From contig JARKIF010000133.1 in NCBI GenBank assembly GCA_029378245.1, positions 27,137 to 91,136 on the forward strand: a stretch of DNA of 64,000 nucleotides. The letters are read 5' to 3'. Position numbers and translations under genes: made by a program. Of the stretch, positions 6,279 to 49,040 are shown piece after piece. Within the stretch, counting starts at the first letter, position 1. The number at the start of each line of letters is the position of its first letter. The DNA is from Roridomyces roridus. Its lineage: Eukaryota; Basidiomycota; Agaricomycetes; Agaricales; Mycenaceae. The notes under the pieces were generated by a model. That model had not been told where the DNA came from and ran no database searches. It saw only the letters and a list, made by a program, of their open reading frames with translations.

Positions 6279-6455
6279 TTCTGTACTTTTGCACATCACT
6301 AGAACACAAGATCAATTAGTCGATCGAACCATACATAAACAGGCAATTTCAAATAAATTTCCACTTTAAACCGTGTCCTTGCTGCGAAAGCGTGGCGTTA
6401 ATCCCTCCTTCTCTTACGACTTTACGACCCGCTTGCTTGTCGCTCTCTCCCAGCC

Positions 6456-46588: not shown

Positions 46589-46655
46589 CTTGCATTTGTA
46601 CCATACAACATCTGTATTAATATATTCGAAAATATGTTTTTACCTTTTGTAGCTA

Positions 46656-47223
46656 TTGATGCACCCCGGCCGGAGGGGTTGTTGATCCACCCCGCGGTTT
46701 CGATCGCCATTTCCTCTTGATCTGCCCCTGGTTTTCCCGTTTGCCTTGTTGATCCGCCTGCTATGAGATTATGAATGCCCTTGTCGGCTGGCACAGCACT
46801 TATTGATCTCCCTGTATCGAAAATCATATTTTTATATGGATCTTCCCCACATTTCAGACGGCTTGATGCAGCATCCAGCGGTCCCTGATCCGGCTCAGTG
46901 AAGGTTTGTGATCCAGCAACAGCGCCACAATTCGAGTTGTTGATCCGCCACACCTTCGACCACACCCTCGTATTGACCCACCCCACCTTTCGACGCACCG
47001 CCGGTATTGATATCCCTACGTGCTCATGCGCGCGTGTCATTGATCTGCCCTAGATTTCCGGGCCTTGGGACTCCTTGATCTACCTACACTTTCCTGGTGA
47101 GTTGGTTATTGAATTACCCCAATGCTCGGTGGAGCCGACCTATTGATCTGCCTACAGTTTACTATAGAATCAAGTTGTTGAAACACCCCACTTTTCGAGT
47201 GCCTGAAGCCCTTGATTCACCCT
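46656..47223. repeat. Left subterminal array, TTGATC(C/T)(A/G)CCC, period about 34 bp
   Basis: Motif starts at 46656, 46682, 46717, 46749, 46771 (weak), 46803, 46837, 46863, 46885, 46908, 46940, 46973, 47007, 47040, 47075, 47109, 47143, 47178 and 47212. From 46908 on, all intervals are 32-35 bp. The DNA between motifs is not conserved, so only the motif and its spacing are maintained. Confidence 0.9.
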
Positions 47224-47306
47224 CACATTTCAATGCGAATTGCGATCACCATGACTTATAATCGTCGACCTCCTCGTCAAGCCAAGGGTGCGCTCTTCCA
47301 CTCCCC

Positions 47307-48506
47307 ATGGCAGACGAACGCAAGCGCAAGAGACACTCCAAGCGTGATGAGCGCGAGGAAGCAGATTCGAACCGGAAACGAGACAAGTCTGTGAAGAAAC
47401 ACAAGTCGGAGAAACCCAACGACGACAAATAGGGGAGGTCAGAGTGAACGAAAAAGCATCGGAACTCGTTCGTAACTCGTTTCGGAACTGGATCAAGTTT
47501 CGACGGATAATCGACCATAATCGAAATTGATCTTTGACCGCCCTCGACGCGAATCGGAACTGTCAGAATCGATTCTGGTCGATTCTCGGCTATTAACCGA
47601 GTTACGATCCAGTTCCGACCGAGTTACGAATCGAGTTCCTCCTCGAGAGGAGGAACACCTCAAATTTTCGGAACTCGAGTTTCGATTCTCGTTCGGAACT
47701 CGACCAAAACTCGACCCAGAATCGAATCGAGTTCCGATCGAGTTCCGACCTCGTTTCGTCCACTCTGACCTCCCCTAATGCAACAAGTCAGCTGTCAAGA
47801 AAAAGAAGGGCAGCCGCAAGAAAGCGAATGACACCAGCGACGACGAGGAGCCCGAAAGCGATCCAGGAACCCTGCGTTCCTACTATGTCACGCAGGACAA
47901 GAAGGGCAATCTTTCCTGCACCTGTAGGCAGTTCCGAGCCACAGGCAAACCTTGCCCGGAGATTCTTGCCATCCAGCTTGAAATACAATTTGGGCCGTCC
48001 AAGAACTATGAACGTCTGTCATTGCATCCCTCCAATTTCCCAGTTTCTAACGCTGCTTTTAGAAGCCGCCCCATCCAAAGAATCGAGGAAAAAACGCACA
48101 AAGGGCAAGAAGAAGAAGAAGAAGGAGGGTACGGACACGGATAGCGGAGAGGACGAACCCGGGCCCGGCAAAAAACGACGGGAGCGGCCCATTCCAGACC
48201 ACCAGGTCAACGACGAGCTGGAGAGTTTTTTCGCGAGTCTGGCGAACGGGTGGAAGCCTTTTGACACCGACGACGAATCCGACGTGAGCTCTGAGGATGA
48301 GAGCAAGCCCAAGTCCAAGAAATCGAAGCCCAATCCATCCACACCGGAGACCAAAGGTGCGCGCGCCTTGCCTTTGCTTAATTTGTCTAATCCATCCCAC
48401 TCCAGTTTCCTCCGGCAGACCTGCCGCCTCCACTCCTCTTCATCCCAACAGAACTCCTGGCTCCCACATGTATACGAGCCGAAATGGAGGGTGGATCAAT
48501 TACTGA
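47307..48506 (+). pseudogene. SWIM zinc-finger coding remnant inside the element
   Basis: ATG 47307 starts a Lys/Arg/Glu-rich frame (MADERKRKRHSKRDEREEAD) that runs to NDDK and is then interrupted by the 346-bp MITE. Past the MITE the same frame resumes (KSAVKKKKGSRKKANDTSDD), then SYYVTQDKKGNLSCTCRQFR and ATGKPCPEILAI. This is a SWIM-like CxCx9C signature in which the usual final His of CxH is Glu. A probable intron ends at TTTTAG near 48060. After it comes another basic/acidic region (PIPDHQVNDELESFFASLAN, GWKPFDTDDESDVSS), and after a last intron the frame stops at 48506, inside the first unit of the right array. No transposase core (DDE) is present, so it is a non-autonomous or decayed element. 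Confidence 0.6.
47431..47776. mobile_element. 346-bp nested MITE, 23-bp TIR, 3-bp target duplication
   Basis: Terminal inverted repeats begin AGGGGAGGTCAGAGTG, 23 bp with one mismatch. AAT is present on both sides (47428-47430 and 47777-47779). Taking out the element and one AAT leaves the surrounding frame open with no stop, which supports AAT over the alternative TA reading. The interior is made almost entirely of short variants of GGAACTCG, GAGTTACGA and CGATTC in both orientations, so it could fold on itself. A 3-bp duplication would suit a PIF/Harbinger-like element, though AAT is not the usual target. Confidence 0.88.
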
Positions 48507-48993
48507 TGCCCGCGAGAAAGTGGGCTAGATCAATAGATCGAGGACCCTCAGAAAACGGGTTACTTCAAGAACCGTAGTGATTTCTGGAGGGGGCGAATCA
48601 ATAAGTAGTACCCGATGAAAAGGTAGGCTGGATCAATAAGGGGTGTCGGTCGGAGTTGTAAGGTTGGATCAACAACTGCTGTATCTAGCAGTGTGGTGGA
48701 TCAATATGGCTCGGTCCCTTGTGTTTGAGGCAGATCAATGAGCTCGAACTAAATTCGTGTGCTAGATCAATAGGTACGCTCAGGCTACATTTGGGGACTT
48801 CAATGAGAAAAAATGCCAGATCAACACAAAATGGCGGCCTGAAATACAGGGTGGATCAAGCCGTTGAAATGTACGGGGTGGTTCAGTTAGCCGCGATGCC
48901 GAATCAAGAACCAGTGGAAAGCTTGGTCAATTTGTCGAAAATGGGGGGTGGATCAATAACCGGCTGGTGCTGGATCAACTTGGGTGGGATCAA
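48494..48993. repeat. Right subterminal array, inverted copy of the left motif
   Basis: The motif (as GATCAA on the plus strand) starts at 48494, 48528, 48563, 48596, 48631, 48667, 48699, 48733, 48765, 48798, 48819, 48854, 48881, 48902, 48925, 48951, 48973 and 48988. The inner ten copies are spaced 32-36 bp; near the terminus spacing mostly falls to 15-27 bp, echoing the tighter spacing seen in part of the left array. Confidence 0.9.
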
Positions 48994-49040
48994 TAGCTAC
49001 AAAAGGCAAAAACATGTTTTGCTAATATATTACACTACTA

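Follow-up and report, generated by a model that had tools for sequence, protein, structure and literature searches.

What might two opposed arrays, each of 17 to 18 copies of one short motif, do at the ends of a small mushroom transposon? The question is raised by a locus in a 64,000-nucleotide stretch of the Roridomyces roridus genome (contig JARKIF010000133.1, positions 27,137 to 91,136), the whole of which is called the window here. An original prediction, made from the letters alone, had placed a transposon with subterminal arrays of a TTGATC motif at positions 46618 to 49032, coordinates that are correct within one base. The element belongs to a real, apparently recently moved Mutator-like family. 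It derives from a longer copy by internal deletion and harbours a small TA-flanked element; its arrays are most likely multi-site docking platforms for an element-encoded protein. The overall reading, a non-autonomous, internally deleted two-gene Mutator-like element (MULE) whose arrays would be docking sites of an element-encoded protein, is given a probability of about 0.6. The parts of the element, in window positions, are as follows.

46618..46626, no strand: left copy of the target-site duplication (TSD), 9 bp, TAATATATT
46627..49022, + strand: non-autonomous Mutator-like element, 2396 bp, the 2047-bp type of copy L019 plus a nested element
46627..46660, + strand: left terminal inverted repeat (TIR), its inner end being the start of the first array motif
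46656..47221, + strand: left array, 18 TTGATCYRCC motifs; regular 32-36 bp part (10 motifs) at 46908-47221, irregular part outside it
47307..48464, + strand: 5' portion of the SWIM-like second gene, a relative of P0056; the nested element lies within it and the deletion truncates it
47430..47777, no strand: nested inverted-repeat element, 344 bp (47432-47775) between two TA
48464..48465: internal-deletion join, where this copy lacks 5,088 bp that are present in the long copies, comprising the transposase and the end of the second gene
48490..48993, - strand: right array, 17 motifs; regular part (10 motifs) at 48490-48803, irregular part outside it
48989..49022, - strand: right TIR
49023..49031, no strand: right copy of the TSD, 9 bp, TAATATATT

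The motif arrays and their spacing

Two sets of sites were used. Scanning for TTGATCYRCC with up to two mismatches yielded 18 motifs in the left array, 15 in the right and none on the opposite strand, against means of 2.1 (left) and 1.5 (right) and maxima of 7 and 5 in 300 dinucleotide shuffles. When a matrix was trained on one array and applied to the other, 18 left and 17 right sites were found at a false-positive rate of 0.001 (0.63 and 0.55 expected), and 15 on each side at a rate of 0.0003. The arrays are thereby upheld by shuffle, opposite-strand and cross-trained matrix controls, although the count of 18 to 19 motifs proposed earlier becomes 17 to 18 by matrix. They are 504-566 bp long and begin within the terminal repeat itself.

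Gaps of 32-36 bp account for 19 of 31 in the mismatch set, where the best 5-bp bin in 20,000 random placements had a mean of 7.5 and a maximum of 14, and for 22 of 33 in the matrix set. The innermost nine gaps on either side all lie in this range, as had been predicted for the inner spacing, and the inner ten motifs have a mean pitch of 33.8 bp. The probability of such regularity on both sides is 1e-5, a post hoc value, as the regular inner parts were noticed first. The outer parts are mostly irregular, with gaps of 15-27, 49 and 54 bp and some of 32-35 bp; the tighter gaps of 15-27 bp had been seen correctly, but they are located in the outer parts of both arrays rather than in the right array and part of the left.

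The inner ten motifs lie at offsets of 0, 32, 65, 99, 132, 167, 201, 235, 270 and 304 on the left and 0, 33, 65, 99, 131, 167, 202, 235, 270 and 304 on the right, so that cumulative positions agree everywhere to within 1 bp over 304 bp (P 0.003 with permuted gaps to 0.009 with resampled gaps, both post hoc). Spacer identity between the two ends is 0.304 in register and 0.321 off register. The unusual feature of the element, recognised post hoc, is this match of the inner arrays in register within 1 bp despite diverged spacers. As spacing is matched while the spacers are unlike, either the spacing would be selected or the arrays would stem from an old inverted repeat with saturated spacers. The inner arrays could even be matched molecular rulers, on which a periodic protein lattice would zip the ends together or measure length before cleavage, and the ends would then be recognised by spacing as much as by sequence; this extension is considered unlikely.

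The original prediction that the intervening DNA is not conserved is nearly correct. Weak preferences exist for T, T and A at positions -3 to -1 (13, 14 and 13 of 20 inner units) and for T at +15 to +17 (10, 12 and 12 of 20), and column homogeneity across the inner units exceeds that of all 2000 permutations. The idea that all motifs face one side of the DNA did not hold. At 10.5 bp per turn, 33.8 bp correspond to 3.2 turns, which rotates neighbouring motifs by about 78 degrees, and no coherence is seen at 10.5 bp (spectral power 0.5-1.1). The periods that do show coherence, 11.3 bp and 17 bp, equal one third and one half of the 33.9-bp pitch; a single face would need DNA wound at 11.3 bp per turn. 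Unless the DNA is so wound, any protein path along the array would be helical rather than confined to one face.

A pitch with unit-like organisation is also what slippage would leave. The arrays might accordingly be decayed, functionless tandem repeats from an ancestral 34-bp minisatellite at both ends, its core surviving by chance. Spacer identity somewhat above the composition expectation of 0.254 fits this, as do the internal repeats of VANDAL21, which are reported to expand and contract (PMC5735166), and the variable repeat numbers of Tm1 and FB elements (PMC3169594, PMC7642927), as far as the available text of these sources goes. Under neutral decay, on the other hand, the core should fade along with the spacers. 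Core positions +1, +2, +3 and +9 read T, G, A and C in 20 of 20 inner units, a partly circular figure since the sites were picked by motif. In-register similarity between the ends does not exceed off-register similarity, and the similarity of neighbouring units is barely above that of all pairs (0.338 versus 0.321 on the left, 0.304 versus 0.311 on the right). A minisatellite origin without function is very doubtful.

Copies in the genome and superfamily

Searches covered 90.8 Mb in 501 contigs, for which copy counts are lower bounds. The family has at least six copies, the left-array and right-array searches returning the same six, so the further copies with the same arrays sought by the original prediction exist. 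The locus is neither solitary nor aperiodic, given six copies and 19 of 31 regular gaps against a null maximum of 14. A terminal-repeat search with up to three mismatches found 14 ends (control 0), comprising the 12 of the six copies and two solitary left ends. Each of the six copies is flanked by a perfect 9-bp TSD of different sequence. Their lengths are 2396 (window), 2047, 2280, 2872, 7129 and 7139 bp.

In aligned pieces, the three other short copies (L019, L020 and L021) match the window copy at 99.0-100% identity, and they have the same deletion join. Identity to the window copy is 95-98% for the two long copies (L017 and L018), which between themselves are 99.7% identical. Relative to the long copies, the join lies at 2179/7268 in L017 and at 6313/1224 in L018. 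The deletion removes the transposase. It reaches to within 25 bp of the right array on its inner side and leaves more than 1.2 kb inward of the left array; being one event, it is weak evidence that both arrays are needed. Because the four short copies share one join, lack a transposase and occupy four different target sites, they are best explained as having been mobilised in trans. The different target sites of near-identical copies, taken by themselves, only suggest recent movement.

The full-length relatives with a transposase that the original prediction called for are the two long copies (7129 and 7139 bp), in which the transposase reads inward from the right end. The MULE domain PF10551 was found by Pfam in 41 of 46 transposase relatives, and the fold of a modelled relative is most like that of the IS256-type ISCth4. 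With its MULE/IS256-type DDE transposase and its perfect 9-bp TSD in all six copies, within the 8-10 bp of the superfamily, the element belongs to the Mutator-like superfamily. It had instead been compared with CACTA, hAT and Zisupton elements, in all of which subterminal repeats are known. Zisupton/KDZ and hAT elements make 8-bp TSDs, and CACTA elements have CACTA termini and a TSD of 2-3 bp. The TSD here is 9 bp in six of six copies, the termini CGAAAATA and GCAAAACA are not CACTA, and the transposase is MULE/IS256-like; the chance that the element is of any of these kinds is next to nil. A Foldback element, with long, internally repetitive TIRs that pair, was rejected too, as the terminal arms pair over 39 nt only (87% complementary) and inner spacer identity is not above off-register identity. 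Beyond these 39 nt, it is mainly the motif that the ends share. The TIR is therefore shorter than the more than 100 bp that are typical, though not universal, for MULEs. This is not disqualifying, because TIRs below 60 bp are also present in two of 14 Aedes MULE families in the available text (PMC5225508).

Motif specificity

All 24 strict motif pairs of the genome are inside the six copies (control 0). With a looser three-part TTGAT pattern, 67 matches were obtained (control 2), of which 35 belong to these copies and 32 lie outside them. Outside the six copies, TTGAT runs at 36-bp steps were noticed at C46:943857-944002 and C111:34142-34287; as a guess, they may be a coding minisatellite.

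This distribution bears on the proposal that a host transcription or chromatin protein binds the arrays, which would then be borrowed promoter elements. Transcription-factor sites typically combine a short, fixed core with free spacers, and the core here resembles the plant W-box TTGAC. Strict pairs are nevertheless found nowhere else in the genome, elsewhere in the window the motif (up to two mismatches) is at background density, with 1.2 per kb on each strand, and 17 to 18 sites per end seem far beyond what a promoter would need. Host-factor sites are quite unlikely. A WRKY-type finger for this W-box-like motif was also considered and is unsupported. The only indication was a Foldseek row at E 1.7 for the WRKY domain 2ayd; none was found in Pfam or PDB profile searches of the N-terminal region (pieces of nine of the 46 aligned relatives) or by Pfam on the 46 whole transposase relatives.

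The second gene

The long copies hold two convergent genes, whose start codons are 681 bp (left) and 694 bp (right) inside the ends. The transposase start was chosen by likeness to the N-termini of P0001 (M. venus) and P0002 (M. latifolia). The second gene is on the + strand, with its ATG 681 bp from the left end in all six copies. Each array is located between a terminus and the start codon of one gene; in L017, the arrays stop 85 and 159 bp ahead of the start codons.

The second protein is lysine-rich and has a CxC SWIM-like motif. P0056, labelled SWIM-type in public data, is 93% identical to the second-gene query; it matches no Pfam family at E<=1 and its structure prediction has a mean pLDDT of 35.5. 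Two further relatives, P0057 and P0058, are both from Mycena vitilis. A C48/Ulp1-like domain is a doubtful candidate: in P0057 and P0058 it scored 16.6 bits, short of the 20.7 cut-off, and P0056 gave no such match. Partial matches to the second protein lie near the related MULE transposases of the genome at C494 (E 1e-21), C35 (3e-7) and C79 (1e-6). Those in C35 and C79 cover residues 300-349 only and are downstream of the transposase on the same strand, while that in C494 is about 6 kb from a transposase stretch that looks inverted. In the Ceratobasidium relative P0051, MULE and SWIM domains are combined in one protein. By these matches and P0051, a SWIM-type partner recurs; in the window family, it faces the transposase.

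The C494 locus (C494:59337-65641, L071/L072) contains an apparent inversion that encloses the degraded MULE transposase, with a 29-bp junction at both ends. This perfect inverted repeat was considered as a second TIR family and rejected, since in L076 and L077 it runs on unbroken into the flanks on both sides. An inversion junction within another repeat is the best reading; the comparison covered L076 and L077, with L078 (one mismatch) left out.

Possible function of the arrays

The motif is taken to be the recognition site of an element-encoded protein, which would be either the transposase or the second protein. This protein would be loaded cooperatively on numerous weak sites spaced at a constant pitch of about 34 bp. 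The loaded arrays would set the ends apart, for synapsis and excision, from the many single TTGATC words of the genome, and they would probably also control the two promoters.

The position of the arrays upstream of both start codons is also what would be expected if they were targets of an anti-silencing or activating SWIM-like second protein rather than of the transposase, as in VANDAL21. They would then keep the promoters active without a part in end recognition. The recurrence of the second gene, with its partial matches near the related transposases in C494, C35 and C79, speaks for this possibility, as does VANC21, whose 9-bp binding motif forms arrays of a single orientation in the noncoding DNA of VANDAL21 (PMC5735166, available text). 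Against it, P0056 has no Pfam family at the threshold given, only two further relatives were found, and the arrays begin inside the terminal repeat, which points to end recognition. Such a promoter function is a serious but improbable contender.

Several observations weigh against docking sites of an element-encoded protein. The spacers are not random, as in-register and off-register identities both exceed the composition expectation; the excess is in line with a weak extended motif. The invariance of the core is partly a product of site selection. The copies are too young for a test of constraint, with too few changes: 3 of 350 motif columns vary, versus 15 of 753 spacer columns (p 0.21, L021 excluded on the right). 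No comparable array was detected in the stretches around C494, C35 and C79, whose ends were not located; no 6-mer reaches eight copies in 600 bp there, as some do in the long copies. A DNA-binding domain was not recognised in the N-terminal region of the transposase by Pfam and PDB profile searches. Finally, TAA and TGA occur in two of the transposase matches of L017, and TGA or TAG in the second-gene matches of both long copies, where introns are possible.

Surroundings and associated insertions

The genes flanking the element are convergent, as predicted. They are a RING-finger gene (+), with a zf-RING_2 match above the Pfam cut-off, and a NADAR-like gene (-), for which the scanned piece scored 26.6 bits, short of the 35.1 cut-off. 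The main difference between the window copy and the 2047-bp type is the 344-bp nested element, absent from L019, L020 and L021. It represents a larger family with 86 matching stretches in the genome (40 of 58 candidates scored). It has internal TCGAGTTCCGA-type repeats, and copies occur at steps of about 15.3 kb on C112 (110366, 125683 and 140997). Further insertions are seen in L020 (C222; about 825 bp) and within the right array of L021 (C223; about 230 bp).

The solitary left ends, L022 (C373:4426-4490) and L023 (C268:112039-112103), are 65 bp long and 98-100% identical to the family. They sit just upstream of an open reading frame (ORF) that by eye resembles a BRCA2/Brh2-type protein; the piece scanned gave no Pfam match. 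Over 4.6 kb the two loci share 96% identity, suggesting a duplication or two haplotypes.

Comparison with known systems

In maize MuDR, a second gene or ORF is antisense to the transposase, as in the window family; it is not known to have such arrays. The same layout is found in Mutyl of ascomycetes, for which the available text notes no such arrays (PMC6446971).

Among animal MULEs, Muta1 of Aedes aegypti has nine copies of a 12-bp subterminal motif with 3-4-bp linkers within a 145-bp TIR (PMC5225508, in part). The Aedes elements and the window family have in common a TSD of 8-9 bp, a repeated subterminal motif and many nonautonomous derivatives. In contrast to the nearly head-to-tail repeats of Muta1, the window family has a 10-bp core about every 34 bp, in 17 to 18 copies over 504-566 bp, with spacers that are little conserved. 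Tm1 shares the 9-bp TSD and internally repetitive ends, and Drosophila FB elements have blocks of five 27-31-bp repeats in opposite directions (PMC3169594, PMC7642927, in part). In Tm1, however, whole tandem units of 13-15 bp form the TIR, whereas the window family shares mainly the core and its arms pair over 39 nt. MULE subterminal repeats described so far in the sources available are near-contiguous tandem copies, in which function and slippage history are hard to separate. In the window family, core and pitch persist while the spacers have largely diverged, so that natural sequence separates possibly selected from unselected parts.

VANDAL elements are a MULE group (table in PMC6446971, in part). 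VANDAL21 of Arabidopsis is likewise Mutator-type and has a family-specific array of a short motif in one orientation in noncoding DNA. Its VANC motifs are instead located in introns and upstream regions, within dynamic tandem repeats, and the available text mentions no 34-bp pitch (PMC5735166). The second protein of the window family is also not recognisably VANC by Pfam, no direct comparison with VANC having been made. A precedent for multi-site end recognition is provided by Galileo, in which several binding sites of a THAP-domain transposase inside long repetitive TIRs were tested by electrophoretic mobility shift assay (PMC3688188, in part). Galileo is of the P superfamily, and the Galileo-G TIR has three sites rather than phased arrays. 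The window family offers a ready test of multi-site end recognition in Mutator transposons, and of whether the reader is the SWIM-like partner or the transposase.

The original prediction knew of no description of such arrays. This holds for the exact form: neither paired arrays of 17 to 18 motifs at a 34-bp pitch nor this basidiomycete family was found in the literature covered. The arrays are an unusual version of a known feature, as subterminal repeats in Mutator and Foldback elements and the motif arrays of VANDAL21 have already been described.
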